Source: a bacterium (GTDB lineage: Bacteria; Patescibacteriota; Gracilibacteria; Peribacterales; Peribacteraceae). Taken from it: a DNA stretch of 40,587 nucleotides. Position numbers and translations under genes: made by a program. Positions 14,706 to 38,871 of this stretch are shown piece by piece. The stretch's first letter is position 1. The number at the start of each line of letters is the position of its first letter. Below the pieces are notes generated by a model that was not told the DNA's origin, ran no database searches, and was given only the letters and a program-made list of their open reading frames with translations. The DNA lies in contig JAKQEM010000013.1 of NCBI GenBank assembly GCA_029558515.1, forward strand, positions 1-40,587. The letters are read 5' to 3'.

Positions 14706-16019
14706 CTACACTCCCTCAGCAAAGGCGGCATCGACCGCCTCGTGCCATTCGCCGATGGCCCCGGGGCTGACCACCTCATGCGGCCAGAACTCCTCGACGA
14801 CGGAGATCTGGAAGTGGGAACCGGCGGGGATGTCTGCGGACGAAATGGCGATGACGTCATAGTAGACGCTATCACCGAGGGGCATCTGCTCGAAGCGGAA
14901 GACCTCCTCGATTGCATTGCCGCCATCCGCCCACGACCCCGACCACCCCCAGCCCTCCTGAGCAGCGTTATCACCACTCAGAAGGATGTGGGGGAACGCA
15001 CCGCTCGGCCAGATCGGCCCCACGCCCTCCGGGAACTCCGCCCGCACTTGGACGAACACGTCATCCGTGACGTTCACGGTGTCCGCGCCGACGACGTCGA
15101 AACCAACAGTCCCCAAGCACACGTTGCTTTCGCCGGGGAAGAACGTGGTCGGCAAGTCGATGACCGACACCTCAAGGTCGACGGTCGTGACCGTCACGGC
15201 CACGCCCTCCGTCTCCGCCCAGGTATCGAAACCCGGGAACGACTCAACGGAGGCGTACGTCATCTCGATCGTCGCTTGGGACCCGACGCCCGTCGTGGGC
15301 GTGCCGTGGAGTTCGATCCCCAAGTATCCGTACTTGGGAGCGGTGGACTCGACGGACTCGAGGTTGAACCAAGCATAACTCGGCTCAAGCCCGCCGTCCC
15401 AGACATAGTCCACGGGAACGGTATCATCCTGATACCCGTCCCCGTTCCAGTCAATCGACACATACAATTCGTCGAATGACTCGAGTTTCCCACTGATTTC
15501 GAAACCGCGGACGACGGCCTCGGCACGCCCCGCCCACACCTGCGTCGCGATCAACACGGAATCCTCGCCCTGCTGGGCAAAGACCTCGGCGGGGCTGGAC
15601 TGCTGGAACGTGACGACGTTCGAGCAGCGGAGGACGTCCGCTACACGGTAAGGGCCGCGCTGGTTCACCCAGTTCACGACCATCAGTGCGTCCGACGGCG
15701 TCACCCAGCCGCTCCCGTCGACGTCGTACTGAAACGTCTGCATGTCAACGGGGCGGGCACCCGTCCCGCCACCGTCATTCCTCCCGTTGAGGAAATTGAC
15801 GATGGCAAGCACGTCACCCGCCGAGACGACATTGTCTCCGGTGACGTCTCCCATCGCCTCAGGGACGACGCACAGGGCATCCGTGCCCCAGCCTCCACCG
15901 AACAAATCCCCCGCCAGCAGATTCCGCTGCTCCATCGCTTCGAAGTGAAGCGTGCGGCTGCGGCGGGCGGCGTTGCTGCGGCGGGCGTTGCGGAGGGAAT
16001 ACAAACTGGAAACCTTCAT
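14706..16019 (-). CDS. Secreted dockerin-like protein with planctomycete-style N-terminal motif
   Basis: 437 residues. Near residues 20-40 it reads LHFEAMEQRNLLAGD, the LExxxxRxLLxGD sequence that marks many planctomycete surface proteins. Two dockerin-type calcium-binding repeats follow (GDVTGDNVVSAGDVLAIVNF and YDVDGSGWVTPSDALMVVNW). The remaining 300 or so residues look like Ig/beta-sandwich modules with acidic Asp/Gly loops (SIDWNGDGYQDDTVPVDY). Unlike most genes here it has a real Shine-Dalgarno, GAGGAG, 7 nt before the ATG, and a long structured leader. Together these point to horizontal acquisition; role in adhesion or polysaccharide binding is only a guess. Confidence 0.7.
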   Translation of the reverse strand: MKVSSLYSLRNARRSNAARRSRTLHFEAMEQRNLLAGDLFGGGWGTDALCVVPEAMGDVTGDNVVSAGDVLAIVNFLNGRNDGGGTGARPVDMQTFQYDVDGSGWVTPSDALMVVNWVNQRGPYRVADVLRCSNVVTFQQSSPAEVFAQQGEDSVLIATQVWAGRAEAVVRGFEISGKLESFDELYVSIDWNGDGYQDDTVPVDYVWDGGLEPSYAWFNLESVESTAPKYGYLGIELHGTPTTGVGSQATIEMTYASVESFPGFDTWAETEGVAVTVTTVDLEVSVIDLPTTFFPGESNVCLGTVGFDVVGADTVNVTDDVFVQVRAEFPEGVGPIWPSGAFPHILLSGDNAAQEGWGWSGSWADGGNAIEEVFRFEQMPLGDSVYYDVIAISSADIPAGSHFQISVVEEFWPHEVVSPGAIGEWHEAVDAAFAEGV

Positions 16020-16126
16020 CGAAATACTCCTCAAACAAGAAAGAAAACAGAAAGCCGTTGGTTCCAATGAGCATGCCACAAGCAAACCCATTTCCACTTC
16101 CGAGTGGACCAACGGCTTGCTTAAGC
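16020..16126 (-). promoter_or_regulatory. Structured 5' leader of the dockerin gene
   Basis: About 107 bases between predicted transcription start and ATG. On the minus strand, hairpin CGGCTT-AAGC-AAGCCG comes first. Then GCCGTTGG pairs with CCAACGGC at the far end, enclosing CCACT-CGGA-AGTGG and a conserved-looking unpaired region. A riboswitch-like or protein-binding element is possible; it does not match the c-di-GMP, cobalamin, SAM or fluoride consensus as I remember them. Confidence 0.45.
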
Positions 16127-17792: not shown

Positions 17793-18599
17793 ATGCTCGC
17801 GCTCAAGAACGTATCCAAAACCTTCGGCGCGGTTACGATCCTGCAGGGAGCGACGCTGCAGATCAATCCCAAGGATACCGTGTGCATCGTCGGACCTTCC
17901 GGCAGCGGAAAGTCCACCATCCTGCGGTTGCTGCTGCGCCTCGATGTGCCGACCAAAGGAACGGTCCTCGTGGATGGCGTCGATCTCACGGTCGTCCCGC
18001 CTCCCGTCCTGCAACTCTTCCGTCGCCGCACAGGCATCATCTTCCAGGAACCCGTCCTCCTCGCGCACGCCACCGCATCGGAAAACATCGCACTTCCGTT
18101 GGAGCTCGCCGGCTTGGCCGAAGCCGCCATCCGCCGCGCCGTGGAAGATCTCCTCCAACGTCTGGGGCTGACCGCCGCAGCGAACCGTTTCCCGGATCAG
18201 CTCTCGCTCTCGGAGCGCTCTCTCGTCGCCATCGCGCGCGCCATCGTCACCGCACCCATGGTCCTCATCGCCGATGAACCGTTTGCCAACCTCGACGTCA
18301 CGCAAGCCAAAACCGTCGCAGCGCTCATCGGGGCGCTCCGCAAGAACGGCACCACCGTCATCGCACTGAGCCGCTCCGATGCAACCGCAACCCTGCTGGA
18401 TGCCCGCATCATCCGCCTGCAACGGGGCGCCATCGCCGAAGAATCCAAGCCGGCAGCCGCAAGCGACGCCGGCCGCCACCGCATCCTGGAACGTCCGACC
18501 GCCTCCCCTGCATCCAAGGAAGAGGAAACGGACGATGCCAGAGGGCGCAAAATCCGCGTCACCGCGATACGCTCGGAGAGTGTGAAAGACAGCGCTTGA
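17793..18599 (+). CDS. ABC-type ATPase with degenerate signature and switch motifs
   Basis: 268 residues resembling FtsE/LolD-type or amino-acid ABC ATPases. Walker A GPSGSGKST (about residues 33-41), the Q-loop GIIFQEPVLLAH and Walker B VLIADEPFANLD are intact. The signature, normally LSGGQ, reads LSLSERS, and the switch histidine after Walker B is replaced (VIALSRSDATA). About 45 charged residues follow the domain. No permease gene is adjacent. It may bind ATP without normal turnover, or be a regulatory subunit. TACACT with TG-C (17780-17785) lies 7 nt before the ATG. The first leader promoter begins inside its stop codon. Confidence 0.75.
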   Translation: MLALKNVSKTFGAVTILQGATLQINPKDTVCIVGPSGSGKSTILRLLLRLDVPTKGTVLVDGVDLTVVPPPVLQLFRRRTGIIFQEPVLLAHATASENIALPLELAGLAEAAIRRAVEDLLQRLGLTAAANRFPDQLSLSERSLVAIARAIVTAPMVLIADEPFANLDVTQAKTVAALIGALRKNGTTVIALSRSDATATLLDARIIRLQRGAIAEESKPAAASDAGRHRILERPTASPASKEEETDDARGRKIRVTAIRSESVKDSA

Positions 18600-18624
18600 C
18601 TTGGCAAAAACTCCTACGTACTCT
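18596..18624 (+). promoter_or_regulatory. Promoter of the aromatic-leader attenuator
   Basis: TTGACT (18596-18601), 17 bases and TACTCT (18619-18624); the leader-peptide ATG is 13 nt further on. Confidence 0.65.
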
Positions 18625-18637
18625 CTCACTCGTGCTG

Positions 18638-18709
18638 ATGCAGCAGTTTGCCTACGGCGCCTATTGGTTCTCCTTTAGCCGGGAGAAGGCGTCAACGTAT
18701 GTGAGCTAA
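18638..18709 (+). CDS. Leader peptide rich in Phe/Tyr/Trp (attenuator)
   Basis: 23 residues starting MQQ, then FAYGAYWFSF, that is seven aromatic residues in ten, and a stop TAA at 18707. Too short to be an enzyme; its position between a promoter and an intrinsic terminator, and the run of aromatic codons (TTT, TAC, TAT, TGG, TTC, TTT), mark it as a regulatory leader peptide like pheL/trpL. TTCTCC (18668-18673) can pair with GGAGAA (18682-18687). GGGAGAAGGCG (18681-18691) is an exact 11-base complement of the terminator's 5' side (18735-18745). A ribosome stalled on Tyr-Trp-Phe would melt the first pairing and free the second, preventing termination. Confidence 0.75.
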   Translation: MQQFAYGAYWFSFSREKASTYVS

Positions 18710-18734: not shown

Positions 18735-18775
18735 CGCCTTCTCCCCGCTCCGAAGGCGTTTTTGTTTTTTCTTTT
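18735..18775 (+). terminator. Intrinsic terminator/attenuator behind the aromatic leader
   Basis: Stem CGCCTTC/GAAGGCG (18735-18741 with 18752-18758), then TTTTTGTTTTTTC. The 5' arm also pairs with 18681-18691, giving a longer competing antiterminator. Confidence 0.8.
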
Positions 18776-18782
18776 TCACCCT

Positions 18783-19148
18783 ATGACTAATCGTGATGTA
18801 CTCGAACACATCGATACGCTTGCAGCGCAGATGGTCGCAGACATTGCAGATGTTGATTTGGATCAATTAAATGATGCATTGGCAATCGCGCTCATTCATC
18901 CGCATCACATCAATCGCACCTCGTTCCGACCATCACCGGACGATTTGCGCAGGTTCATCACTATCGCCATACGCCATCTACTCCACATGGCGTACGATCA
19001 AACAAAGAACCTTGATTGGATCAGGGACATGGTCAATAGCCGCTTGCGCACCATGCTCTCTCAGCATAATCCAACCGTCCTTACTGAAAGAATGCGACGT
19101 ATGAGCGAGACACATGACGAACCGGAGTGGAAAGAAATCGCGGCATAG
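18783..19148 (+). CDS. Small unknown protein A, under an aromatic leader
   Basis: 121 residues, no recognised family, no signal peptide or membrane segment. Predicted largely helical (VLEHIDTLAAQMVADIAD, DLRRFITIAIRHLLHMAYD). His and Asp are frequent. Only five aromatic residues (2 Phe, 1 Tyr, 2 Trp) occur. The ATG follows directly after the terminator's T-run, so expression requires read-through of the attenuator. The role is unknown; the control logic implies it is made when charged aromatic tRNA is scarce. Confidence 0.6.
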   Translation: MTNRDVLEHIDTLAAQMVADIADVDLDQLNDALAIALIHPHHINRTSFRPSPDDLRRFITIAIRHLLHMAYDQTKNLDWIRDMVNSRLRTMLSQHNPTVLTERMRRMSETHDEPEWKEIAA

Positions 19149-19165: not shown

Positions 19166-19193
19166 TTGACACACGCAGCGTCTCAACTAGAAT
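19166..19193 (+). promoter_or_regulatory. Promoter of the leucine-leader attenuator
   Basis: Perfect TTGACA (19166-19171), 16 bases, TAGAAT (19188-19193); the leader ATG is 12 nt further on. Confidence 0.75.
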
Positions 19194-19205
19194 CACCCCG
19201 TACTC

Positions 19206-19280
19206 ATGCAGCAACGAGGACTCCTCCTCGGCCTTAGCCTTCTTCTCCTCCTTACGGCGGAAGGGCGGCTGGCTGCGTGA
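19206..19280 (+). CDS. Leucine-rich leader peptide (attenuator)
   Basis: 24 residues, again starting MQQ. Ten are Leu, including LLLGLSLLLLL; nine of the ten Leu codons are CTC or CTT, which a tRNA-Leu with anticodon GAG would read. GGAAGGGCGGC (19259-19269), immediately after the Leu run, is complementary in 10 of 11 positions to GCCTCCCTTCC (19312-19322), the 5' side of the terminator. CCTTC (19238-19242) can pair with GAAGG (19260-19264) as the protecting hairpin. This is the layout of leuL-type attenuators. Confidence 0.8.
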   Translation: MQQRGLLLGLSLLLLLTAEGRLAA

Positions 19281-19312
19281 GTGAATAGGACACAGTGACT
19301 TCACCACCAGAG

Positions 19313-19345
19313 CCTCCCTTCCACGAAGCGGAGGTATTTTTATTT
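19313..19345 (+). terminator. Intrinsic terminator/attenuator behind the Leu leader
   Basis: CCTCC...TTC-CAC-GAA...GGAGG (19313-19334) with a small internal loop, followed by TATTTTTATTT. The sequence just after it is similar to that after the third terminator, so the two regulatory modules are probably related by duplication. Confidence 0.7.
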
Positions 19346-19361
19346 ATGTTTCCATTTTCCC

Positions 19362-19766
19362 ATGAATCACGAACCACCACACCCGACGATCACAGATGAA
19401 TTCTGGCGCATGGATGCGCATGAGAGATTCATGATGCGATCTGCCGGAATCGCAGTGCCACATCCTGCGGATATCTCACATAGCATCTCTTTCATCCCGG
19501 AGGAACAACTGTATGAAATCAAAAAAATTTCCGGCAAAGCTGCAATGAGTGCGGCATGGGCTATTATCGATGAAATCAACATGAATCCTAAGAACCTATC
19601 GTGGCAGGAGATTACTGCTATCTATAAACAATATATGGGTTGTGAGCCACAAAAAGATGAAACAGCAAACCCTGTTGTGAAAGCATTGGCCAATTTTGCT
19701 GGATATTTGAACGGGACAAAGGCGTATGTGCGCAATGCATTCATGCAAATTTGCGAACATATATGA
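19362..19766 (+). CDS. Small unknown protein B, under a leucine leader
   Basis: 134 residues, no recognised family, soluble. It has a Met/His-rich N-terminal third and a C-terminal helical part (LANFAGYLNGTKAYVRNAFM). Composition is striking: I count only four Leu in 134 residues, encoded by CTG, CTA, TTG and TTG, so the CTC and CTT codons sensed in its leader never occur in the gene. That would allow full-length synthesis while the matching tRNA-Leu is uncharged. Start ATG lies 16 bases after the terminator's T-rich tail. Confidence 0.6.
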   Translation: MNHEPPHPTITDEFWRMDAHERFMMRSAGIAVPHPADISHSISFIPEEQLYEIKKISGKAAMSAAWAIIDEINMNPKNLSWQEITAIYKQYMGCEPQKDETANPVVKALANFAGYLNGTKAYVRNAFMQICEHI

Positions 19767-19773: not shown

Positions 19774-19801
19774 TTGCAAGGTTCATTTCCACTGATACCA
19801 T
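19774..19801 (+). promoter_or_regulatory. Promoter of the isoleucine-leader attenuator
   Basis: TTGCAA (19774-19779), 16 bases and extended -10 TG-A-TACCAT (19796-19801); the leader ATG follows after 10 nt. Confidence 0.6.
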
Positions 19802-19811
19802 CGCGCCGTTC

Positions 19812-19865
19812 ATGCATCTCTCCATCATCAACCAGAGCATTATTATCATCCCGCGCACCGCGTGA
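19812..19865 (+). CDS. Isoleucine-rich leader peptide (attenuator)
   Basis: 17 residues, MHLSIINQSIIIIPRTA, with six Ile encoded by ATC and ATT. Its stop overlaps the segment GGAGGT (19866-19871), which is complementary to ACCTCC (19898-19903) on the 5' side of the following terminator. Pairing here is shorter (6 bp) than in the two preceding leaders. Arrangement promoter-leader-terminator-gene is the same. Confidence 0.65.
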   Translation: MHLSIINQSIIIIPRTA

Positions 19866-19897
19866 GGAGGTAACTCTGGACTGGCACTTGGCTATCC

Positions 19898-19926
19898 ACC
19901 TCCCCGCGCAGGGGAGGTTTTTATTT
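19898..19926 (+). terminator. Intrinsic terminator/attenuator behind the Ile leader
   Basis: ACCTCCCC-GCGCA-GGGGAGGT (19898-19918), then TTTTATTTG. A strong, textbook hairpin between the leader peptide and gene C. Confidence 0.85.
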
Positions 19927-19945
19927 GTGTTTCCCTCCAATGCAC

Positions 19946-20416
19946 ATGTCAGAAACGGCAACGCGATGGACTGCGGAAGACATCCCTTCCGAGGAATACT
20001 GGGGGGCGATTCTGCGGGTGCACCTTTCGGAAGGTACGATCCGTCTGCGGTGCGCAACACGATCTTTGCGCGATCATGCGGAACACGCGGATGCAATCGT
20101 GGCACTGCTGCTTGCGAGCATACGTCCGGAATTACAAACGCTCATGGGAGTTCTCCCCACTCAATGCGCCATATCAATCGATGTGCATGACGCAAGCAGT
20201 CCCTATCTGCATCCACCCGAACGTGGTACTGCGTTTCAGTACTGGCTGCGCGTTTTTGATACACGAACGCATCTCTATTTCATTCTCATGACGCATGAGC
20301 ACCAACACGATGATCGCGGTACCCTCCAATGCATTGTGGGATTGAGAAACGCCTGCGCGGAATGGGTACATACACTACAACCTCTCACGCCATCATCGAC
20401 AGCACCAGCGCAATGA
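19946..20416 (+). CDS. Small unknown protein C, under an isoleucine leader
   Basis: 156 residues (158 if the ATG at 19940 is used), soluble, no recognised family. It looks like an alpha/beta fold, with a central helix (ADAIVALLLASIRPELQTLM) and beta segments (AFQYWLRVFDTRTHLYFILM); a His-rich stretch, THEHQHDD, could bind metal. Ile content is ordinary (nine, including ATA codons that the leader does not use). Start lies about 20 bases after the terminator's T-run. Confidence 0.6.
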   Translation: MSETATRWTAEDIPSEEYWGAILRVHLSEGTIRLRCATRSLRDHAEHADAIVALLLASIRPELQTLMGVLPTQCAISIDVHDASSPYLHPPERGTAFQYWLRVFDTRTHLYFILMTHEHQHDDRGTLQCIVGLRNACAEWVHTLQPLTPSSTAPAQ

Positions 20417-20705
20417 GCGAAGCGAGGGAAGCTCGAAAGAGCGGCCGGTGAGGAAGGGAGGTAATCATGCAATTTCGTCTGAAGGTCCACGGTTGAGGAC
20501 GAACGTGGGGGGATTATCTGAACCAAAACCGTGAAAATGTCATAATTTCCCCGGATGCAACTTTGCCTCTGCACGACAGGCAAAAAGCCCACAGTGGCAA
20601 TTTTTTGATATGCCATAGCACCATTTTTTGAGAGAAATCAAAAATCGACTTTACAGCAGACTCTCGCTGCATACACTGGCGGCTTATTCTCACTTCCATT
20701 TTCCA
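20417..20705. other. Intergenic stretch with possible weak attenuator
   Basis: It starts with a GAGCGAAGCGAG-type dispersed repeat. GGAAGGGAGGT then stands 5 nt before an ATG (20467) that opens only nine codons. Further on, TTGCCT (20563-20568) can pair with AGGCAA (20578-20583), or its TTGCC with GGCAA (20596-20600) ahead of six T residues. The nine-codon peptide has no amino-acid bias, so a fourth leader is not established. Confidence 0.35.
20650..20677 (+). promoter_or_regulatory. Promoter of small gene D
   Basis: TTTACA (20650-20655), 16 bases and TACACT (20672-20677), about 28 nt before the ATG. Confidence 0.5.
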
Positions 20706-21071
20706 ATGACTGACATTACCCGTGAGACCAGCGAGGAATTCGCCGCGGCAGATTTGGCTGCGAATGAGCGCGTTGCACAACTGTTTTTTCTCATGCGATT
20801 GAGCGGTAATCAAGCTGTGATAGATGTACAAGAATTTATGCAGTCACTATCACCACCGGAAAGAACGCATGTCATGCAAAAACTCAACACAATGCGCAAT
20901 CCGACGGATATTGAGACACGGCGTACGCGCAGATCGCTCATTTTGATTTTGACTCCCCATGCAAATCCCTTTTTTGCACCCCGTGTTCAACCTAGTGCAA
21001 CAAATAAACAAACTCGCTTTCCGGACGAGTTTGACACGCAAGCAGAGCAACCGGTATCTGCCTCCTTATGA
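20706..21071 (+). CDS. Small unknown protein D
   Basis: 121 residues, soluble, no recognised family; helical N-terminal two-thirds (FAAADLAANERVAQLFFLMR, VIDVQEFMQSLSPPERTHVM) and a low-complexity, probably disordered C-terminus. It has the same length as protein A and the same kind of helical composition but no alignable motif. Last of the four-gene island; unlike A-C it has its own promoter and no convincing leader peptide. Confidence 0.5.
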   Translation: MTDITRETSEEFAAADLAANERVAQLFFLMRLSGNQAVIDVQEFMQSLSPPERTHVMQKLNTMRNPTDIETRRTRRSLILILTPHANPFFAPRVQPSATNKQTRFPDEFDTQAEQPVSASL

Positions 21072-22884: not shown

Positions 22885-24573
22885 ATGCAAAACATCTGCC
22901 CCCAATGCTCTTCTAACTTCGATATCACCGATGACGATCTCGCGTTTTTGGAAAAAGTATCTCCGATATTCAATGGCAAGAAGGAATTGATTCCCCCGCC
23001 GACCTTGTGTCCGGAGTGCAGGATGCAGCGGAGGCTCGCGTTTCGAAACGAGCGCAAACTGTATCACCGCAAATGTGATCTCACGGGCAAACAGATCGTA
23101 TCCGTATACGCAGCGGATAAACCGTTCAAAGCATACCAATCCGATGAATGGTACACGGACAAGTGGAACGCATTGGAGTACGGTCGCACTTTTGATTTCT
23201 CCAGGACTTTTTTTGAGCAATGGGCAGAATTGATGAGTGTAGTGCCTCGCATGTCCCTCGTGACTTCTCCCGAAGCGAATGCATTCAATTGTTCGTACAT
23301 CAACTTTGCCGGCCACAGCGAAAATTGCTACATGACATTTGACTCCGATTACAACAGAGATTCCATGTACACAAATGTTCTGAAACACTCGCAGAATTGC
23401 GTGGATTGCTCGTTCGTCCACGAGTGCGAGCTATGTTATGAATGTGTCGATTGCTATGCATCCTACAATCTGCGCTTCAGTGAGAATTGTACAAATTGCA
23501 GCGACTGCGCATTTCTCAAAAATTGCTCTGGGTGCAGACAATGCTTCTTCTGCTCCAACCTCGCACAGAAAGAATACCACATTTTCAACAAACCGTATTC
23601 CAAATCAGAGTACGAGCAACTCTTGGAATCCATGCAACTGAACACGTCATCCGGCTTGCACAAACTAAAGAATGAATTTGCGGAATTCACGAAACAATAT
23701 CCTCAGAAATTTCAGCACGCGCTGAAGGTGGAAAATGGTGTGGGGGATTATTTGGCAAATGTGCAAAATTGCCATCATTGCTTTGACATTGCCGATGCTC
23801 AGGATCTGCGATACTGCGACACACTGTACAAAGCAAAGGATTGCTGCGACGTCTCCTCCTTCGGAGAGAACATTGCATTGATTTATGATTCAGGAACAAT
23901 TGGAGTAGAAGGTTACAATCTGCAATTTTGCTTCAATTGCGTAATCAATTGCTCGGATCTGCTGTATTGCAACGAATGTCATCGTGCATCACATTGCTTC
24001 GGATGCATCGGTGTGGGAGAAAAATACTGCATCCTCAACAAGCAGTACACACAGGAGGAGTATGACACGCTCGTTCCTCAGATCATTGCTCACATGCGGA
24101 CCACAGGAGAATGGGGGCAGTTTTTCCCCGGTGCCCTTTCTCCTTTTGGATACAGCGAAACCATGGCACAAGAGCAATTTCCACTCACCAAAGAATCAGC
24201 GCTTACGAACGGATGGAATTGGTATGAAGAGCGCACAGAAGCATCAGACAACTACATGGGCCCAATGATAACTATCCCCGATTCCATCACCGATGTCCCG
24301 GACGACATCACCAAGCAGATTTTGAAGTGTGAAGCCACCGGCAAGCCCTACAAGATCATTCCGCAGGAACTGAAGTTCTATCGTGAAATGGGCATTCCGA
24401 TCCCGCGGAAATGTCCCGACCAAAGGCATAAAGAACGCATGGCGCTGCGAAATCCACGCAAGCTCTGGAAGAGAAATTGCATGAAATGCAGTAAAGAAAT
24501 CGAAACGACGTACAGTCCGGAGAGACCGGAGATCGTCTATTGTGAATCTTGCTACCTTTCTTCCGTGTACTAA
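22885..24573 (+). CDS. Cys-rich zinc-ribbon/repeat protein, copy 1
   Basis: 562 residues with about 39 cysteines, no signal peptide or membrane segment. Layout: N-terminal ribbon-like module with C5-x2-C8 and C42-x2-C45 (FNGKKELIPPPTLCPECRMQ); a repeat block of NCxxC/CxxCxxC units ending in the motif FNKPYSKSEYE (about residue 235); a second such block ending in YCILNKQYTQEEYDTL (about 385); and a C-terminal module (KCEATGKPYKI, IPRKCPDQRHKERMALRN, NCMKC, YCESCYLSSVY) that resembles the N-terminal one. Probably zinc-binding and cytoplasmic; the function is unknown. I remember similar CPR proteins being labelled hypothetical. First of seven paralogues here. Confidence 0.8.
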   Translation: MQNICPQCSSNFDITDDDLAFLEKVSPIFNGKKELIPPPTLCPECRMQRRLAFRNERKLYHRKCDLTGKQIVSVYAADKPFKAYQSDEWYTDKWNALEYGRTFDFSRTFFEQWAELMSVVPRMSLVTSPEANAFNCSYINFAGHSENCYMTFDSDYNRDSMYTNVLKHSQNCVDCSFVHECELCYECVDCYASYNLRFSENCTNCSDCAFLKNCSGCRQCFFCSNLAQKEYHIFNKPYSKSEYEQLLESMQLNTSSGLHKLKNEFAEFTKQYPQKFQHALKVENGVGDYLANVQNCHHCFDIADAQDLRYCDTLYKAKDCCDVSSFGENIALIYDSGTIGVEGYNLQFCFNCVINCSDLLYCNECHRASHCFGCIGVGEKYCILNKQYTQEEYDTLVPQIIAHMRTTGEWGQFFPGALSPFGYSETMAQEQFPLTKESALTNGWNWYEERTEASDNYMGPMITIPDSITDVPDDITKQILKCEATGKPYKIIPQELKFYREMGIPIPRKCPDQRHKERMALRNPRKLWKRNCMKCSKEIETTYSPERPEIVYCESCYLSSVY

Positions 24574-24633
24574 CCCTTCTTACCTTTCTGCCCTTTCTGC
24601 CTTTCCTCATCCCCCTCACTTTCCTCACCTCCC

Positions 24634-26310
24634 ATGCCTTCCTGCGCAAACCAGTGGTGTCAGCAGAGCTTCGAAATCACCGACGCCGATCTCGCGTTTT
24701 TGGAAAAAGTATCTCCGATATTCAATGGCAAGAAGGAAATGATTCCTCCGCCGACCTTGTGTCCGGAGTGCAGGATGCAACGGAGGCTCCTCTTTCGGAA
24801 CGATCTCTGTCTCTACCACCGAAAGTCTGATCTCACCGGTAGGGCTATGATTTCCATGTACGCACAGGACAAGCCTTACAAAGTCTACGATCAAGACGAG
24901 TGGTGGAGCGATCGGTGGAATGAATTGGATTACGGTCGTGACTTCGATTTCTCTCGAACGTTTACGGAGCAATTCCGAGAGCTCAATCTGGCAATACCGC
25001 ATCAAGGGCTCTTCACGACGAACGCGGAAAACAGCTACTATACCAACCATTCACTCAACACGAAGAACTGCTACCTCATTGCGGGGGCGACCAATCTGGA
25101 AGACTGTCTCTTCGGCCGTTTCGTCATCAGCGGCAACGACGTGGTCGACGGCCTTTCGCTCTACGGCTGTGCGTGGTGCTACGAAGGCATCGCATCCCAA
25201 AACTGTTACCAGTGTCTGTTCTTCCGGCACTCGCGGGATTGCAGCAGCTGCCTCATGATCGACGATTGCCAGTCCTGCAAAAACTGCTGCATGTGCTTCG
25301 GACTGAAGAGCAAAGAATACTGTTATTTGAATGAACAATTGACCAAGGAGGAATACGAACAGCGGATTCAACATCATTTCCCGATGACGGTCGATGGCAT
25401 TACAGCGATGCGCCGACAGCTTGCGGAATTATCAATACGATTCCCGCATCGTGCTCTCCAGGTTTTCAGCTGTGAAGACTGCACCGGAGACATGGTCTTC
25501 AGCAGTCAGCGTTGTGAGAGTTGCTTTGACTGCACCGATTCTCAGGATTGCAAATACATCAGCAATTCGCCGAACAGTAACAATAGTCAGGATGCTAATT
25601 ACACGGCACCGCAGGGAATAGAGCAGTGTTACAACGTTAACTCAACGTGTGGTATGTGTAATAGTGGGACATTTTTAGCTTGGTACTGTTCGGATGTCTT
25701 GTACAGTCGCGAGTGCCATCGAGGCGCCAATCTCTTCGGCTGCGTCGGCATCCGGCACAAGGAGTACTGCATTCTGAATAAACAATACACAAAAGAGGCA
25801 TATGAGAAATTGGTGCCAAAAATTATCGAGCATATGCGAAAGACCGGTGAGTGGGGTGAATACCTTCACCCGAGTCTTTCGACGATGGGCTACAACGAGA
25901 CGCTGGCACAGGAGTACTTCCCAATCACGAAAGAAGAAGCACTCTCACGCGGGTGGCAATGGCATGACGAAGCCGAACCGCAGCAGCAGTACCTCGGCCC
26001 CGACTACGTTGTCCCCGATTCCATCACCGATGTCCCGGACGACATCACCAAGCAGATTTTGAAGTGCGAAGTCACCGGCAAGCCCTACAAGATCATCCCG
26101 CAGGAACTGAAGTTCTACCGCGAGATGGGCATTCCGATTCCACGGAAGTGTCCCGACCAAAGGCATAAAGAACGCATGGCGCTCAGAAATCCGCGCAAGC
26201 TCTGGAAGAGAAATTGCATGAAATGCAGAAAGGAAATCGAAACGACGTACAGTCCGGAGAGACCGGAGATCGTCTACTGCGAAGATTGCTACCTTTCTTC
26301 TGTGTACTAA
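24634..26310 (+). CDS. Cys-rich zinc-ribbon/repeat protein, copy 2
   Basis: 558 residues, same layout as copy 1, but with a longer first knuckle (C4-x4-C9, CANQWC) and different repeat blocks (DCSSCLMIDDCQSCKNCCMC; ESCFDCTDSQDC). Block-closing motifs are YCYLNEQLTKEEYEQ and YCILNKQYTKEAYEK. It starts 60 bases after copy 1 with no promoter between them, only a CTTTCTGCC-rich tract, so the two are probably co-transcribed. The DNA of its C-terminal 300 bases is nearly identical to that of copies 1 and 3. Confidence 0.8.
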   Translation: MPSCANQWCQQSFEITDADLAFLEKVSPIFNGKKEMIPPPTLCPECRMQRRLLFRNDLCLYHRKSDLTGRAMISMYAQDKPYKVYDQDEWWSDRWNELDYGRDFDFSRTFTEQFRELNLAIPHQGLFTTNAENSYYTNHSLNTKNCYLIAGATNLEDCLFGRFVISGNDVVDGLSLYGCAWCYEGIASQNCYQCLFFRHSRDCSSCLMIDDCQSCKNCCMCFGLKSKEYCYLNEQLTKEEYEQRIQHHFPMTVDGITAMRRQLAELSIRFPHRALQVFSCEDCTGDMVFSSQRCESCFDCTDSQDCKYISNSPNSNNSQDANYTAPQGIEQCYNVNSTCGMCNSGTFLAWYCSDVLYSRECHRGANLFGCVGIRHKEYCILNKQYTKEAYEKLVPKIIEHMRKTGEWGEYLHPSLSTMGYNETLAQEYFPITKEEALSRGWQWHDEAEPQQQYLGPDYVVPDSITDVPDDITKQILKCEVTGKPYKIIPQELKFYREMGIPIPRKCPDQRHKERMALRNPRKLWKRNCMKCRKEIETTYSPERPEIVYCEDCYLSSVY

Positions 26311-26361
26311 CCCTTCTTACCTTTCTGCCCTTTCAGCCTTCCCTCACCTTCCCCACTTCCC

Positions 26362-26652
26362 TCACCTTTCTGCCTTCCCACCGATGCCCACCGCTTTCTG
26401 CAACATCGGCACCTTCACGACTTCCAGATCGTCAAGGCGTTCATCCAGATTGCCGATCTGTACGGACAATAGCTCAACTTTTCGTTCAAGCTTGCTCAAA
26501 CGCGCATCAATGGCATCAAATCGTTTATCCATGAGCGAAAATCTGGAATCGACCTGCGCAAAACGTGCATCCATATGTTGCATGATTCTGCGTTCCATCC
26601 CTTGCATATGCTGCAGGAGAATCGCCGGAGTGATGTCCTGGTTATCGGCCAT
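26362..26652 (-). CDS. Small coiled-coil protein, companion 1
   Basis: 96 residues: MADNQDITPAILLQHMQGM, then an uninterrupted heptad pattern (RFSLMDKRFDAIDARLSKLE, VELLSVQIGNLDERLDDLE) predicted as a parallel coiled coil, and the tail VPMLQKAVGIGGKAER. The last codons run into the CTTTCTGCC repeat tract. TTGCAG (26684-26689), 17 bases and TAACAT (26661-26666) form a promoter 8 nt before the ATG. Paralogue of the gene at 28502-28819; both lie antisense-oriented just after a Cys-rich gene. Function unknown. Confidence 0.65.
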   Translation of the reverse strand: MADNQDITPAILLQHMQGMERRIMQHMDARFAQVDSRFSLMDKRFDAIDARLSKLERKVELLSVQIGNLDERLDDLEVVKVPMLQKAVGIGGKAER

Positions 26653-26827
26653 GGATCCGCATGTTATGCCTCCCCGATATCCGCTGCAATCCAACCGCGG
26701 AGCTTTCTTTCCCACAATCCCGCTGATCTCTTCCCGAAGCCCTCTTTCCTGTTCTGTTCCCTCGTAGAACACCCCCGTCATTTCGCATTTTTCATTTTTC
26801 ATTTCCCATTTTCCATTCATAAAATCT

Positions 26828-28495
26828 ATGCAGCAGACTTGCGCAAACCAGTGGTGTCAGCAAAGCTTCGAGATCACCGATGACGATCTCGCGTTTTTGG
26901 AAAAAGTATCTCCGATATTCAATGGCAAGAAGGAATTGATTCCCCCGCCGACCTTGTGTCCGGAGTGCAGGTGGCAAACACGCATGGGATTTCGCAATGA
27001 ATGGAATCTCTATCATCGAAAATGCAACATGTCGGGCAAGCAACTCATCTCAATGTTCGCGCCAGACAGTCCGTATCCCGTCTACGATCAGGATGTTTGG
27101 TGGAGCGACGCGTACGATCCGTTGATGTACGGGAGGGACTTTGATTTCAACACTCCGTTCTTTGAGCAGTTTGATACATTGCATCGTGTTGTTCCAAAGG
27201 TTTCCATCCAGAATGCAAAGAGCGAAAACAGCGTCTACACCAACTACTCGGCATCGAACAAGAACTGCTACATGGTCGTCGGCGGTTTGGGCGATGAAGA
27301 TTGTCTCTTTGGGTACCGCGTGTTTTACTCCACTGATTGTACGGACTGCTACGACCTCTTCCAGTGTCAGCGCTGCTATGAGTGCGCGGAATCCAGCGGA
27401 CTCTATGACTGCATCCACTGCCACAACTGCCAAAACTCCTCGAACCTCCTTCACTGCGTTGACTGCGTCGGTTGCCAAAATTGCTACGGTTGCGCGGGCC
27501 TGCGTAATAAGGAATTTCATCTCTATAATGAAGCGCTCAGCGAGGAGGACTACCGCACGCAAGTGGCGAAGCTCGGTCTTCTCCCATTCCCGGAGAATCA
27601 AGCACGTATTCGACAGGTGCACTTGCAGGCGCCTCGTCTCTTCACACGCCAAATCCAGTCGGAAAACGTCACGGGTGATCAACTGCTGGAATGTCAGAAC
27701 TGCTTCGAGTGTTACACGATCAAACGCTCACAGGATTGTCGCTTCGTCATCAATGCCGATCACGACAAAGATTGCCACGACGCGAATTTCATAGATGACT
27801 GTGAACTTCAGTATTATTCCGCCAACCTGCAGGATAACTACCGCACTATTTTCTGTTCACTGCTCTGGTACACGAAGGAATGCTCCTACACGATGAACAG
27901 CTTCCACAGTCATCACCTCTTCGGATGCAGCGGTATGAAAAAGCATGCGTACTGCATCCTCAATAAACAGTACACACAGGAAGAGTATGACACTCTCGTC
28001 CCTCAGATCATTGCTCACATGCAGCATACCGGGGAATGGGGGCAACACTTTCCCATCCGCATCTCTCCCCTCGGGTACAACGAAACCGTCGCGTTTGAAA
28101 CACTCCCTCTTGCTCAAGAGGAAACTCTCGCACGCGGCTGGAAATGGAGCAATCCCCAGGAAACACAATCACAATACCTCGGCCCCGACTACGTTATCCC
28201 CGACTCCATCACCGATGTCCCGGACGACATCATCAAGCAGATTCTGAAATGTGAAGTCACCGGCAAGCCCTACAAGATCATCCCGCAGGAATTGAAGTTC
28301 TATCGTGAAATGGGCATTCCGATCCCGCGGAAGTGTCCGGATCAACGACATAAGGAACGCATGGCGCTGCGAAATCCACGCAAGCTCTGGAAGAGAAATT
28401 GCATGAAATGCAGTAAAGAAATCGAAACGACGTACAGTCCGGAGAGACCGGAGATTGTGTATTGCGAAGAATGCTACCTCGCTTCCGTGTACTAA
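26828..28495 (+). CDS. Cys-rich zinc-ribbon/repeat protein, copy 3
   Basis: 555 residues; first knuckle C5-x4-C10. Bases 26879-26971 are identical to 22930-23022 of copy 1, while the middle is different (CYECAESSGLYDCIHCHNCQ, then NSSNLLHCVDCVGCQNCYGC). Block-closing motifs are FHLYNEALSEEDYRT and YCILNKQYTQEEYDT. The C-terminal DNA again matches copies 1 and 2 almost exactly. Its start is preceded by a run of CATTTTTCATTT-like units; a good -10 box is not clear. Confidence 0.8.
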   Translation: MQQTCANQWCQQSFEITDDDLAFLEKVSPIFNGKKELIPPPTLCPECRWQTRMGFRNEWNLYHRKCNMSGKQLISMFAPDSPYPVYDQDVWWSDAYDPLMYGRDFDFNTPFFEQFDTLHRVVPKVSIQNAKSENSVYTNYSASNKNCYMVVGGLGDEDCLFGYRVFYSTDCTDCYDLFQCQRCYECAESSGLYDCIHCHNCQNSSNLLHCVDCVGCQNCYGCAGLRNKEFHLYNEALSEEDYRTQVAKLGLLPFPENQARIRQVHLQAPRLFTRQIQSENVTGDQLLECQNCFECYTIKRSQDCRFVINADHDKDCHDANFIDDCELQYYSANLQDNYRTIFCSLLWYTKECSYTMNSFHSHHLFGCSGMKKHAYCILNKQYTQEEYDTLVPQIIAHMQHTGEWGQHFPIRISPLGYNETVAFETLPLAQEETLARGWKWSNPQETQSQYLGPDYVIPDSITDVPDDIIKQILKCEVTGKPYKIIPQELKFYREMGIPIPRKCPDQRHKERMALRNPRKLWKRNCMKCSKEIETTYSPERPEIVYCEECYLASVY

Positions 28496-28501
28496 CCCTT
28501 C

Positions 28502-28819
28502 TTACCTTTCTGCCCTTTCTGCCCTTCCTCCCCTTCCTGCCTTCCCACCGATGCCAACCGCTTTCTGCAACATCGGCACCTGCACGACTTCCAGGTCATC
28601 CAATCGCTCATCCACATTGCCGATCTGCACGGACAGTAATTCGACTTTACGCTCCAGTTTGCCTAAACGTGCATTAATTTCGTCAAATCGAAGGTCCATC
28701 TTGTCAAACTTCTTCATAATGCGCTGCTCCATTGTTTGCATTTGCATGGAAAAATCTCCACGCATGGCCTGCATGTGCTGCAGGAGAATCGCCGGTGTAA
28801 CGTCTTGGTCATCCGCCAT
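28502..28819 (-). CDS. Small coiled-coil protein, companion 2
   Basis: 105 residues, paralogous to the gene at 26362-26652: MADDQDVTPAILLQHMQAM, heptads (MKKFDKMDLRFDEINARLGK, VELLSVQIGNVDERLDDLEV) and a C-terminus drawn from the repeat tract (GGKAGRGGRAERAER). Promoter TTGAAG (28851-28856), 17 bases, TATTCT with TG-G (28828-28833), 8 nt before the ATG. The duplication evidently included a Cys-rich gene and its companion. Confidence 0.65.
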   Translation of the reverse strand: MADDQDVTPAILLQHMQAMRGDFSMQMQTMEQRIMKKFDKMDLRFDEINARLGKLERKVELLSVQIGNVDERLDDLEVVQVPMLQKAVGIGGKAGRGGRAERAER

Positions 28820-28992
28820 GGAACGTGAGAATACCAATGCCTCGGTCTCCCTTCAATCCGATCACGACCTTTCTTTGCGAGATTGTTTTTGTCATCATAC
28901 CTTTTGCCTTTAAACAAGCCCTCTTTCCCCGTTCCGTCCGATAAAAGAACGACTCGCAATCTCGGACGTTCACGGTGCGTTATACTCCGTGC

Positions 28993-30663
28993 ATGCAGCA
29001 GACCTGCCGCCAATGCTCGACCTCCTTCGAGATCACCTCCGACGATCTTGCGTTTCTGGAGAAAGTCTTGCCGGTGTTCAACGGAAAGCCAGCGTTGATT
29101 GCGCCGCCAAGTTCATGCCCATTGTGTCGCTGTCGTATGCGAATGGCATGGCGAAATGAAAGAACCCTCTATCGGAGAAATTGTGCTCTGTGCGAGAAGA
29201 GCATGATCACCATTTTTCATCCGGATGAACCCTACATCGTCATCTGCACCTCCTGCTTCTGGTCGGATCAATGGGATCCGCTCACGTACGGACAGACCTA
29301 TGATTTTTCTCGACCATTCACCGATCAGTTTGTTGAACTCCTGCATCGTGTGCCACTCATCGGTCTCATCAATTTGAACACGGAAAAATCCGAATACTGT
29401 CATCGTATATTTAGCGGCCGTAACAACTATCTCTCCTTCATCGCAATCTTTGAGCCCGAAAACCTGTACTACACCTATTACACCATCTCCTGCAAAGATT
29501 GCGTCGATGTCACCAATTGTCAGTACTGCGAGCGATGCTATGAATTGACGGATTCCGAACGATGTTATCAATGTGCGTTTGGCAACCGCATCAAAAATTG
29601 TCGCGATTCTATGTTCTTGGAAGATTGTGTCGGCTGCTCCCATTGTTACCGTTGCAAGAATCTACATCAAAAATCCTACTGCATCGAAAACAAGCAATAT
29701 TCCAAAGAAGCATACGAAGCGGAAATACACACGAAACATCTGGATTCGATTGCGGCACTCGCACAACAACAAAAAATGGCACAAAACTTTCATCTGACAT
29801 TGCCTCATCGGGCAGCCGTACGCATCAACTGTGAGTATGCGACCGGAGCCAATATCTACAATTGTCGTGAGAGCACGAACATATTCGATTTTTATGAATC
29901 AGAGCGCATGGTCCACTGCGCTCAGGGAGAGGTAAGCCATGATTGCATGGATTGCTTCGGATTCGGAAAAGGTGAGTTTTGCTACGAATCGACCAGTTTC
30001 ATGGGTGGACAGCTTCTACGTTTTTGCATCGATTGTACGACGGGATCGGACATGCTGTACTCATACAGTTGCTTTCAAAATTCTGAGCATTGCTTCGGTT
30101 GTGTTTCTCTTAAACGTGGATCTTATTGCATATTGAACACGCAGTACACGCAAGAAGAATATGAATCACTTGTCCCCAAGATTATCGCGCATATGCGATA
30201 TATCGGAGAGTGGGGAAGTTTTTTCCCGCCGTCATTGTCTCCCTATGGTTACAATGAAACTGAAGGCGCAACGTTTTCGGCAGTATCGGAGGAACAAGCG
30301 GCGCGACTCGGGTTGCGTTGGCGCATACCGAATACACAGCACCGCATACAACAAATTGCTTCGATTCCTGATCGCATCACCGACGTGGTTGACACGATTG
30401 TGGATACCATTCTCCACTGTGCCGCATGTGGTAAACAATTCAAAATCATTCTGCAGGAACTGAATTTCCTGCGAGACTTGAAAGTTGCGCTCCCGACTTG
30501 TTGTCCCGACTGCCGCCATCGGACACGCATGGCTTCCCGTGCCCCTTTTCAACTCTGGAAGAGAAATTGTCAAAAATGCAGCAAAGAAATGGATGCATCC
30601 TACGCGCCCGAGCGGCCGGAAATTGTGTACTGTGAAAATTGCTACTTGGCTTCTGTCTATTGA
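28993..30663 (+). CDS. Cys-rich zinc-ribbon/repeat protein, copy 4
   Basis: 556 residues, more divergent than copies 1-3 (N-terminal LPVFNGKPALIAPPSSCPLC; extra knuckle CALCEKS). Block-closing motifs are YCIENKQYSKEAYEA and YCILNTQYTQEEYES. The C-terminal module keeps its cysteines (CAACGKQFKI, CCPDCRHRTRM, NCQKC, YCENC). TATACT (28981-28986) ends 6 nt before the ATG, so this copy has its own, probably leaderless, transcript. Confidence 0.8.
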   Translation: MQQTCRQCSTSFEITSDDLAFLEKVLPVFNGKPALIAPPSSCPLCRCRMRMAWRNERTLYRRNCALCEKSMITIFHPDEPYIVICTSCFWSDQWDPLTYGQTYDFSRPFTDQFVELLHRVPLIGLINLNTEKSEYCHRIFSGRNNYLSFIAIFEPENLYYTYYTISCKDCVDVTNCQYCERCYELTDSERCYQCAFGNRIKNCRDSMFLEDCVGCSHCYRCKNLHQKSYCIENKQYSKEAYEAEIHTKHLDSIAALAQQQKMAQNFHLTLPHRAAVRINCEYATGANIYNCRESTNIFDFYESERMVHCAQGEVSHDCMDCFGFGKGEFCYESTSFMGGQLLRFCIDCTTGSDMLYSYSCFQNSEHCFGCVSLKRGSYCILNTQYTQEEYESLVPKIIAHMRYIGEWGSFFPPSLSPYGYNETEGATFSAVSEEQAARLGLRWRIPNTQHRIQQIASIPDRITDVVDTIVDTILHCAACGKQFKIILQELNFLRDLKVALPTCCPDCRHRTRMASRAPFQLWKRNCQKCSKEMDASYAPERPEIVYCENCYLASVY

Positions 30664-30684
30664 TGGTTTTGGGTAGGATTCAAC

Positions 30685-30712
30685 CTGAGCAAGCGAAGCG
30701 CGTCGAAGGGTG
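30685..30712. repeat. GAGCAAGCGAAGCG-type dispersed repeat
   Basis: CCTGAGCAAGCGAAGCGCGTCGAAGG-like sequence downstream of copy 4 belongs to the dispersed family seen beside the tRNAs and near 20417. Confidence 0.4.
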
Positions 30713-30744
30713 AAGCATGCTATCTCTCTTCCGTGTACTTAAGA

Positions 30745-31584
30745 TCAAAGGAAATATGGCTCAAGTATCCGCCGAATGCGCTTCGCCTCGTCCGTGCTAC
30801 GACGGACGGCGATCTTGCAGCGCGTTTTCATGCGGAAAATGTCCGCGAAGAGTTCCGGATCGAAGTCCTCAATGCGTTGAATCGTCTGGAAGAAAAACGC
30901 AAAGTGTCGGCTGATGGCTTGCGGAAAAATGCATTCAATCACGTATTCACCGCAAGACCACAGAGCCACACCTTCTTTCGGAAAACCAGTGTCTCTTGCC
31001 ACCGCCGTTTCATATCCCGAAACATGGATGGCCTTTTCGCCATAGCGATCGAGAAATGTATCATTTCCAAAAAGGAGATGACAATAAATGCCAGCGGCGA
31101 CAATACTTTGATTGAGACGTGTTTCCGTATCGCGCATCCCGAGCGAATACCACGGATGGGAATTGTACACGAACCACTCACGTTCATCGGTCGTTCCAGA
31201 AAGTTCCAAAATCATGAAGTTCCAAACGGCATCAAGTTCAAAAAGTGAATTCGCGGTGAAAATGCATTTCTCTCCCTCATGCAACGTATCCAATCGCAAT
31301 GCTTTGCTCTGCTCCGATGCGAAAGAAGCCTGTGCACGTTCCACGAAATCACCGATCCGCGACACCCAAACATGATGGAGCGCAACGGTACCGTGCGTTC
31401 GCACGATGATCTGCTTGTCACTCATCTGCGAAAGCAGTCGATACAGTGTCGGCAACGATACCTTCACCGATGCATCCGATTGCAGCAGCGCAAGAAGCGA
31501 GCGCGTCGAAATGGGACCATGCTCGGCAAGGAGCTGGAGAACCGCACTCTGGAGCGGATGGAGAGGATCGATCTGCGTCAGCAT
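30745..31584 (-). CDS. Winged-helix-like regulator with unknown C-terminal domain
   Basis: About 279 residues. The N-terminal 70 fit a winged helix (PLQSAVLQLLAEHGPISTRS, LPTLYRLLSQMSDKQIIVRT). The remaining 200, with aromatic-rich EREWFVYNSHPWYSLGMRD, have no recognised family. An ATG at 31605 is also in frame but lies upstream of the best -10 (TG-A-TACTAT, 31596-31601 complement), so 31584 is preferred. It is divergent from copy 5 with only about 90 bases between starts, mirroring the trmB/copy 1 arrangement. Confidence 0.55.
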   Translation of the reverse strand: MLTQIDPLHPLQSAVLQLLAEHGPISTRSLLALLQSDASVKVSLPTLYRLLSQMSDKQIIVRTHGTVALHHVWVSRIGDFVERAQASFASEQSKALRLDTLHEGEKCIFTANSLFELDAVWNFMILELSGTTDEREWFVYNSHPWYSLGMRDTETRLNQSIVAAGIYCHLLFGNDTFLDRYGEKAIHVSGYETAVARDTGFPKEGVALWSCGEYVIECIFPQAISRHFAFFFQTIQRIEDFDPELFADIFRMKTRCKIAVRRSTDEAKRIRRILEPYFL

Positions 31585-31674
31585 CTGACACCATGATAGT
31601 ATCATTTTTTGAGAATTTCATATGATTTTTCTCACATTTCTTTACAATACGGTCTGAATGATGAAAATGCGACA

Positions 31675-33366: not shown

Positions 33367-33382
33367 GATTGCATGCATACTG

Positions 33383-33411
33383 TTGCATTTTGCATACGAT
33401 TTGACTATACT
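33383..33411 (+). promoter_or_regulatory. Promoter of the second RelB/RelE pair
   Basis: TTGCAT (33383-33388), 17 bases, TATACT (33406-33411). The perfect palindrome TGCATGCA (33370-33377) just upstream, and GCAT repeats across the region, may bind the antitoxin. Confidence 0.65.
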
Positions 33412-33435
33412 CTGCATGTACATTCCCTTTTTCCT

Positions 33436-33732
33436 ATGGCCCAGAAAAGCATCCAGGTCCGCATCGATGAAGATCTCAAAATGCGGGCAGAAGCGGTATT
33501 TCGGTCCATTGGTATCGATGGACCCACTGCAGTGCGCGTATTCTATTCGAAGGTTGCCGCGACCGGAGGTATTCCGTTCTCTCTCGGCAAAGAGGCAGAG
33601 CCGGAGTACACACCGGAACAGATTGCGAAGCTGGATCAAATGGTGGATGAAGCCATGCAGCCGGGCAATAGCTTTGGCCCCTTCAATACTGTTGAGGAGA
33701 TGTTCGACCACATGCAGCAACAGAAGATATGA
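33436..33732 (+). CDS. RelB/DinJ-family antitoxin (second pair)
   Basis: 98 residues: ribbon-helix-helix (KSIQVRIDEDLKMRAEAVFR, SIGIDGPTAVRVFYSKVAAT) followed by GGIPF, the usual RelB/DinJ succession, and an acidic C-terminal toxin-binding tail. Overlaps the toxin by 4 bases (ATGA). Inserted between Cys-rich copies 5 and 6. Confidence 0.92.
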   Translation: MAQKSIQVRIDEDLKMRAEAVFRSIGIDGPTAVRVFYSKVAATGGIPFSLGKEAEPEYTPEQIAKLDQMVDEAMQPGNSFGPFNTVEEMFDHMQQQKI

Positions 33733-33986
33733 AGCTGCACTACACCGCACATTTCCTGCGCAAGCTACGCAAACTTTCACCTGTTGATCAGGCGTGCGTG
33801 CGTGCGACCCTGGAAATACTGGAACAGCATCCCGATCACCCCGCTCTCCATACGCATCCATTGCACGGATCAAAGCGGGGAATGTATGCGATCACGGTGC
33901 AGTACGATCTGCGCATCCTGTACGCCAAACACGAACAAAATATCTTGCTCATGCTAACCGTCGGCACGCACGATGAGGTGTATTGA
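33729..33986 (+). CDS. RelE/YafQ-family toxin (second pair)
   Basis: 85 residues. The core HTHPLHGSKRGMYAITVQYD, then LRILYAKHEQNILLMLTVGT and the C-terminal His-Asp (THDEVY), fit RelE/YafQ ribosome-dependent mRNA interferases; the Asp-Trp of typical YafQ is replaced, so substrate preference may differ. Coupled to its antitoxin by overlap. Confidence 0.85.
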   Translation: MKLHYTAHFLRKLRKLSPVDQACVRATLEILEQHPDHPALHTHPLHGSKRGMYAITVQYDLRILYAKHEQNILLMLTVGTHDEVY

Positions 33987-34072
33987 GGAGTAACGAAATA
34001 AACGAATAACAGGACATCCTGTCCGTTTCGCTTGCGTCTGTTATTCTCTGATATTCTCTGTATTCTTCGTTT
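33987..34072. repeat. Palindromic stutter element before copy 6
   Basis: AACGAA/AACGAATAACAG units on the left, a perfect GGACA-TCC-TGTCC hairpin (34012-34024), and CTGTTATTCTCTGATATTC units on the right that are complementary to the left arm. It ends at the copy 6 start and supplies its -10 (TATTCT, 34061-34066). Confidence 0.6.
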
Positions 34073-35749: not shown

Positions 35750-35857
35750 GCAATCTCACCATGACGCCATCACACCCATCTGCTATAATTGCAGAATCCA
35801 CTGCATTATCTGTGGACATTAAAGGTATTATGCAATAAAATTAGATTACTGTCCAAT

Positions 35858-38113: not shown

Positions 38114-38217
38114 GGGGTAAAGGGTAGGGGGTAGGGAGAAGGAAGAAGAAATTGTTTCTCGAAGTTCGTTCTTCGTTTTTCGTTGTGTCAGGCACAGCTT
38201 CTCTGATGCAAAATCCG

Positions 38218-38263
38218 TTGCTTATTCTCTAGAAGAGGAATAGTATGGTACTAAATTCAGTAC
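38218..38263 (+). promoter_or_regulatory. Promoter and operator of the Phd-like/RelE pair
   Basis: TTGCTT (38218-38223), 17 bases, TAGTAT (38241-38246). The perfect inverted repeat GTACT-AAATTC-AGTAC (38248-38263) covers the predicted transcription start, as expected for autorepression. Confidence 0.65.
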
Positions 38264-38282
38264 TTTATTTACCTCTATCAAT

Positions 38283-38794: not shown

Positions 38795-38871
38795 GTGAGT
38801 GCAACCGGGGTGCATGAGGCACATTTCCCATTTCGCATTTTGCATTTAGCATTTCTCATTATACTCATCGT

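Follow-up and report, generated by a model that had tools for sequence, protein, structure and literature searches.

A predicted leucine attenuator of the leuA type preceding a small, leucine-poor protein in Peribacteraceae

What does a leucine attenuator control in a genome that lacks leuA? The question is raised by a 40,587-nt stretch of DNA (contig JAKQEM010000013.1 of assembly GCA_029558515.1), hereafter called the window, from a member of the Peribacteraceae with a genome of 1.3 Mb (G000; 99% complete). Three tandem attenuator modules, for aromatic amino acids (A), leucine (B), and isoleucine (C), are located in the window downstream of a gene for an ABC-transporter ATPase (17793..18599, + strand), which serves as a syntenic anchor. 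In each module, a promoter-like site and a leader open reading frame (ORF) are followed by a terminator and then a small gene, and an antiterminator strand is located at or close to the leader's end. A scan for attenuators over ~680 kb, roughly half of the genome, returned modules A, B, and C and two chance-like matches, and nothing else. The original prediction for this locus held that protein B is adapted to be made when leucine runs short. In the literature searched, neither attenuators nor leucine biosynthesis in Peribacteria was found described.

Anatomy of the three modules

Module B begins with a promoter, TTGACA - 16 nt - TAGAAT (19166..19193, + strand), that matches the consensus at 11 of 12 positions; position 19166, the start of the span originally singled out, is its −35 box. 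The ATG of the leader follows the promoter by 12 nt, leaving a very short 5′ untranslated region (UTR), and the relatives G272 and G131 possess a matching TTGACA/TAxAAT promoter with a short UTR. Among the promoters of the three modules, that of module B alone passes a consensus promoter scan. The promoter-like sites of module A (TTGACT - 17 nt - TACTCT, 18596..18624, + strand) and module C (TTGCAA - 16 nt - TACCAT, 19774..19801, + strand) were recognized by eye and fall under the threshold of the scan. In all three modules the leader starts 10 to 13 nt past the −10 box (18624-18638, 19193-19206, and 19801-19812), and the leader mRNAs may therefore be nearly leaderless. No clear Shine-Dalgarno sequence was seen upstream of genes A to D.

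The leader peptide of module B, MQQRGLLLGLSLLLLLTAEGRLAA (19206..19280, + strand, ending in a stop codon), contains 10 leucines among 24 residues, nine of them encoded by CTC or CTT and one by CTG, and a recount of the sequence agrees with the original prediction on this point. The 5′ strand of the antiterminator, GGAAGGGCGGCT (19259..19270, + strand), is contained in the final part of the leader ORF. Its partner, AGCCTCCCTTCC (19311..19322, + strand), is a shared strand that either pairs with the antiterminator or is taken up within the intrinsic terminator (19312..19346, + strand), which is built of a CCTCC/GGAGG stem, a CTTC/GAAG inner stem, and a T tract. Where a 10-of-11 antiterminator match had been noticed originally, the recount gives 11 pairs in 12 positions for GGAAGGGCGGCT and AGCCTCCCTTCC. 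When the module was folded with the footprint of a ribosome masked, the antiterminator reached a probability of 0.89 with the ribosome stalled, and the terminator reached 0.82 with the ribosome at the stop codon. Gene B (19362..19766, + strand) follows and encodes 134 amino acids with the N-terminal motif TDEFWRMDAHERFMMRSAGIAVPHP.

Module B therefore combines the features of a ribosome-mediated attenuator, namely, a leader rich in control codons, a terminator, a covarying and mutually exclusive antiterminator, and in silico switching by the ribosome. The Rfam covariance models for operon leaders, riboswitches, and T boxes gave no relevant match to the module up to an E value of 5, and a gene for tRNA-Leu(GAG) is present in the genome. 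Judged from its sequence, module B is a ribosome-mediated transcription attenuator, with an established anatomy of leader, antiterminator, and terminator. Because the scan gives few other matches and the leucine leader is conserved across the family, the observation at this locus is confirmed as real and beyond chance.

The two flanking modules are organized similarly. In module A, the leader MQQFAYGAYWFSFSREKASTYVS (18638..18709, + strand, followed by a stop codon) contains three Phe, three Tyr, and one Trp; the antiterminator 5′ strand, AGCCGGGAGAAGGCG (18677..18691, + strand), was placed by the scan and by folding, and a terminator of CGCCTTC/GAAGGCG plus a T tract (18735..18767, + strand) precedes gene A (18783..19148, + strand; 121 amino acids). 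In footprint folding, module A switches like module B, apart from a return of the antiterminator when the ribosome is at the stop codon. Searches for relatives of the aromatic leader gave chance-like matches only. In module C, the leader MHLSIINQSIIIIPRTA (19812..19865, + strand, likewise followed by a stop codon) contains six Ile and is succeeded by a candidate antiterminator strand from the attenuator scan, GCGTGAGGAGGT (19860..19871, + strand), a terminator found in the scans (19898..19923, + strand), and gene C (19940..20416, + strand; 158 amino acids). Equilibrium folding of module C gave no switch, the pairing of GCGTGAGGAGGT not being favored over the terminator.

A fourth small gene in the row, D (20706-21071, + strand), has its own promoter-like site (20650-20677, + strand), and the scan found no attenuator between 20650 and 21071. 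Elsewhere in the window are a cluster of seven long, CxxC-rich paralogs of about 555 to 585 amino acids with similar C termini (22885-40581) and, on the − strand at 14706-16112, the gene for a protein that carries a type I dockerin domain (Pfam, E = 6.7e-9).

The leucine attenuator family and leuA

Modules of relatives were collected from a comparison set of 74 genomes of the family by means of the conserved leader core, CTTACGGCGGAAGGNNGGCTG. With up to three mismatches allowed, the core occurs in 49 of the 74 genomes; after chance matches among the loci with three mismatches had been dropped and the loci read, about 43 leucine modules remained. In many relatives the attenuator is located 2 to 4 kb downstream of an ortholog of the ABC ATPase gene. 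Leader, antiterminator, and terminator are conserved over these modules, with longer terminators in many relatives. The leaders are of the type M-x-Q-R-x-LLLGL-x-LLLL-TAEGRL-RA-stop, and their synonymous bias is strong, with CTC and CTT accounting for 85% of the Leu codons. A mean of 10.76 of the 12 antiterminator pairs is kept across modules, whereas shuffling the partners among distinct modules 5,000 times gave 10.11 on average and never more than 10.41; G-C/A-T compensatory replacements occur at several pairs. In 41 of 43 modules, footprint folding gives an antiterminator with the ribosome stalled at the upstream Leu codons and none with the ribosome at the stop codon. With the ribosome at the stop codon, the terminator exceeds a probability of 0.5 in 25 of 43 modules only. 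Six leaders carry an in-frame insertion (L152 in G184, L160 in G012, L161 in G131, L128 in G174, L129 in G299, and L162 in G010) that resembles a palindromic repeat, about CCCTGAGCNTNGTCGAAGGG, and adds about 9 residues (e.g., PALSVVEGL); these leaders retain the Leu codons and the antiterminator.

A leuA-like gene is located directly behind the leucine attenuator in 10 genomes. Among those tested with NCBIfam, the genes of G016 and G299 exceed the cut-off for 2-isopropylmalate synthase and the others match the same family below the cut-off. In G272 and G131 a small motif ORF stands between the attenuator and leuA, and the leuA genes of these two genomes exceed the cut-off as well. Homologs of the isoleucine leader were found in G174 and G206 only, each directly before an HMGL-like (leuA/cimA-like) gene, for which the best NCBIfam models are citramalate synthase in G174 and 2-isopropylmalate synthase in G206, both below the cut-off. 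PF00682, the Pfam family that comprises the leuA/cimA homologs, is absent from the genome bearing the window and from 52 of the 74 family genomes in all; about 24 of these 52 keep a leucine attenuator before a small protein. Predicted control of leucine biosynthesis genes by the attenuator is thus found in 10 relatives and not at module B. Because homologous attenuators front leuA or cimA and this genome has neither, the attenuators of modules B and C have probably outlived their leuA/cimA targets. On this comparison, leuA would have been lost in the present lineage, rather than never having been linked here and gained by the relatives.

The contig region of G206 at 7197-7150 (− strand; L111) holds a second leucine-type core, whose leader reads Lys and Thr codons (MLKTKKTS..), and the gene behind it is aspartokinase-like. 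A normal leucine module is located 1.4 kb away, and the Lys/Thr module is apparently a duplication with a changed sensed amino acid. The leucine-type switch thus appears to be reusable. These comparisons also bear on whether the element is a sensor at all, since a hydrophobic, Leu-rich leader might itself be a functional micropeptide or a type I toxin-like peptide that merely precedes an ordinary terminator. We regard that as highly improbable: the conserved part of the leader is the LTAEGRL end that encodes the antiterminator and covaries with the terminator arm, the element precedes leuA in relatives, and the G206 duplicate reads Lys and Thr codons ahead of the aspartokinase-like gene.

The small proteins behind the attenuators

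Protein B has no significant match in Pfam or NCBIfam and lacks the HMGL-like TIM barrel of 2-isopropylmalate synthase (LeuA). Direct homolog searches with proteins A to D found no relatives, a borderline match in G174 having proved spurious on reading, and the relatives of B came solely via the attenuator. Genes behind leucine attenuators share the motif WR[YFM]xxxERxMMRxxGIxV, which is present in B. A profile of the motif built from nine relatives, with B left out, ranked B first, at an E value of 6.8e-7, among 3,974 ORFs of the sampled genome, the second-best ORF having 0.31, and the motif alignment including B gave 9 matches in 288 genomes of the class, all of them behind leucine attenuators. 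By these searches, B is not an orphan but a member of a motif family found only behind leucine attenuators. The small proteins evolve fast, sharing a short motif only. Selection on them is moderate, as pairwise dN/dS was about 0.25 to 0.47 in four of the computable pairs; another pair gave 0.89. A further set of small proteins under leucine attenuators (L139 in G286, L140 in G026, and L156 in G137) shares a Cys-rich CxxCxR... segment and a LTAGRRLAA variant of the leader.

In the small ORF of L161 (G131), the C-terminal half contains a LeuA-like segment, HAFCHEAGIHQ, fused behind the small-protein motif, and ACT-domain-like genes adjoin the locus in several relatives; both features were noted by eye. 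Together with the gene order in G272 and G131, they would fit a small protein whose gene once headed a leu operon and that acts as an accessory in branched-chain amino acid metabolism, such as a regulator, a transporter helper, or a protease adaptor that restores leucine. This is unlikely in our estimate, as leuA/cimA homologs are lacking from most of the genomes that carry the small gene and the protein has neither a Pfam domain nor an enzyme signature.

To characterize composition, the first ATG-initiated ORF with 45 or more codons was taken downstream of each attenuator, yielding 32 small proteins. Leucine accounts for 5.1% of their residues, compared to 9.9% across a background of 331 small genes (Mann-Whitney, P = 2e-11), the background being drawn from a simple ORF caller instead of curated annotation and, for the relatives, from the regions fetched. 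No other amino acid is depleted as strongly against this background, and Ile is enriched. The subset with the motif contains 4.4% Leu, and the fraction of Leu among L, I, V, M, and F is 0.20 versus 0.32 in the background (P = 2e-8). The depletion persists when GC3 and composition classes are regressed out, with P values of 1e-5 to 6e-11 at three background thresholds. Leucine is below the background median in 23 of 23 genera, a genus-level count that partly controls for the relatedness of the small proteins. By comparison, the neighboring lineage-specific proteins A, C, and D contain 8 to 11% Leu.

Such a composition might also arise without adaptation if the attenuators were relics left by the loss of leuA/cimA, with young or decaying small ORFs behind them whose odd composition stems from weak selection and disorder. 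The small genes' low GC3 and rapid evolution, the shortness of the shared motif, the lack of relatives for proteins A, C, and D, and the low-confidence AlphaFold models of B (mean pLDDT, 61) and C (mean pLDDT, 45) are consistent with decay. However, covarying antiterminators are kept in the about 24 genomes without a leuA/cimA homolog, the motif is tied to the attenuator, the depletion falls on leucine most of all while Ile is enriched, and it outlasts the composition controls and is not shared by the neighbors A, C, and D. Position-specific base composition likewise predicts 7.5% Leu where 5.1% is observed, with K and V deviating as much. We therefore consider decay alone to be unlikely.

The codon choice of the small genes was shifted as well, CTC and CTT making up 32% of their Leu codons versus 50% in the background. 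Part of this shift is general, because the small genes have low GC3 (0.45 versus 0.63); against GC3-matched genes, the avoidance of CTC/CTT gave P = 0.003 at two thresholds and 0.07 with the strictest background. In the four-codon box of Leu, pyrimidine endings drop from 0.62 to 0.47, while the boxes of Val, Pro, Arg, and Ser hardly shift, those of Ala and Gly go down by about 0.05, and that of Thr goes up by 0.07. The leuA-like genes behind attenuators contain 6.4% Leu and display no codon avoidance. On the reading that we prefer, the leucine depletion would be adaptive, and the composition of the protein family, along with its codon choice at the family level, would suit synthesis during leucine shortage.

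Protein B itself contains four Leu among 134 residues, encoded by CTG, CTA, TTG, and TTG, exactly as first described. The comparison with size-matched genes that had been proposed as a check places its Leu content in the lowest 2 to 4% (3/92 including B; 3.6%). CTC and CTT are used for none of the four Leu codons, which has a probability of about 0.08 at the genome frequency. Two outcomes had been named that would speak against the idea, ordinary Leu content in homologs of B and genome-wide rarity of CTC/CTT; the homologs are Leu-poor, both overall and in the motif subset, and the two codons account for 47% of the Leu codons in ordinary genes genome-wide. The adaptation originally proposed for B thus holds up for the leucine family, in the depletion and in most codon tests, but not in the codons of B taken alone.

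For the flanking modules, the idea that the sensed amino acid is depleted is not clearly supported. Protein A was originally called poor in aromatic residues, and the count of 5 in 121 is correct but falls at the 14th percentile of the genes of the genome, short of a clear depletion. Protein C, with 9 Ile in 158 residues, stands at the 55th percentile and is, as had been stated, not poor in Ile. Each of proteins A, B, and C is the lowest of the three in its own sensed amino acid, for which the chance is about 1 in 27; this is suggestive of adaptation at most.

A proposed starvation switch and its relation to known systems

In the mechanism that we propose, leucine would be sensed mainly via CTC/CTT codons read by tRNA-Leu(GAG). 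When leucine is plentiful, the ribosome would reach the stop codon of the leader and cover GGAAGGGCGGCT, the terminator would form, and gene B would be off. When leucine is short, the ribosome would stall in the Leu run, GGAAGGGCGGCT would pair with AGCCTCCCTTCC, the terminator would be blocked, and gene B would be transcribed. The element is homologous to the leuA attenuator of the relatives, and as the genome has no leuA/cimA homolog, the switch would now serve a small Leu-poor protein. That a leucine-sensing attenuator of the leuA type has come to control a small, Leu-poor protein adapted to leucine shortage is, on sequence grounds, probably correct in our assessment. Protein B might then be synthesized exactly when tRNA-Leu(GAG) is uncharged, as the original prediction had it, with the attenuator switching in vivo and B yielding a functional starvation protein. 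We suggest more tentatively, as a possibility that we hold slightly less readily than its negation, that in Peribacteria that do not make leucine, single-amino-acid attenuators are starvation switches for small effectors adapted in composition and codons to the missing amino acid. A role of the switches as a substitute for a missing stringent response was rejected, as RelA/SpoT domains occur in 73 of the 74 genomes, this one included.

If the proposal is true, reduced and probably host-dependent bacteria can lose a biosynthetic operon and yet keep its sensor, rewired to a starvation response. It names a small-protein family and the condition in which to seek its products, and the 23 genera offer a natural test of the idea that an amino acid in short supply is avoided by the proteins required during its starvation. 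A biosynthetic attenuator that predicted auxotrophs retain for the control of small Leu-poor proteins would be a new variation on known attenuation.

Among the known systems, a Leu-rich attenuator peptide is located upstream of ilvD in Staphylococcus aureus (PMC5794164). Module B resembles the leu and ilv-leu attenuators in its leader rich in Leu codons, its mutually exclusive antiterminator and terminator, and its read-through at leucine shortage, which is predicted here, and the family shares with them a leuA-like target in 10 relatives. Unlike these attenuators, module B targets a small protein of no recognized family in a genome without a leuA/cimA homolog, its antiterminator strand lies within the end of the leader ORF, it is one of three consecutive modules for different amino acids, and it has no match among the Rfam models.

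Selective tRNA charging has been related to the choice of control codons by Elf et al. (2003; taken up in PMC1183508), and the 85% CTC/CTT in the family leaders is in line with this. The present case departs from that account in that the small proteins under control shun the sensed amino acid itself and, at the family level, also the sensed codons, whereas the leuA-like genes behind the identical type of attenuator show no codon avoidance. Low cognate bias, described for biosynthetic enzymes by Fasani and Savageau (2014; PMC4209129), similarly holds that proteins needed in amino acid starvation contain little of that amino acid, although the small proteins here are not recognizable biosynthetic enzymes. 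In the Chlamydiaceae, Bonner et al. (2014; PMC3937554) described sets of down-Trp proteins, with Trp as a survival cue. The parallels are the reduced genomes, the depletion of an amino acid as the proposed cue, and the low-content proteins made at that time; the chlamydial pattern, however, concerns protein composition across pathways, whereas the link here would be a cis-acting attenuator before one small protein.
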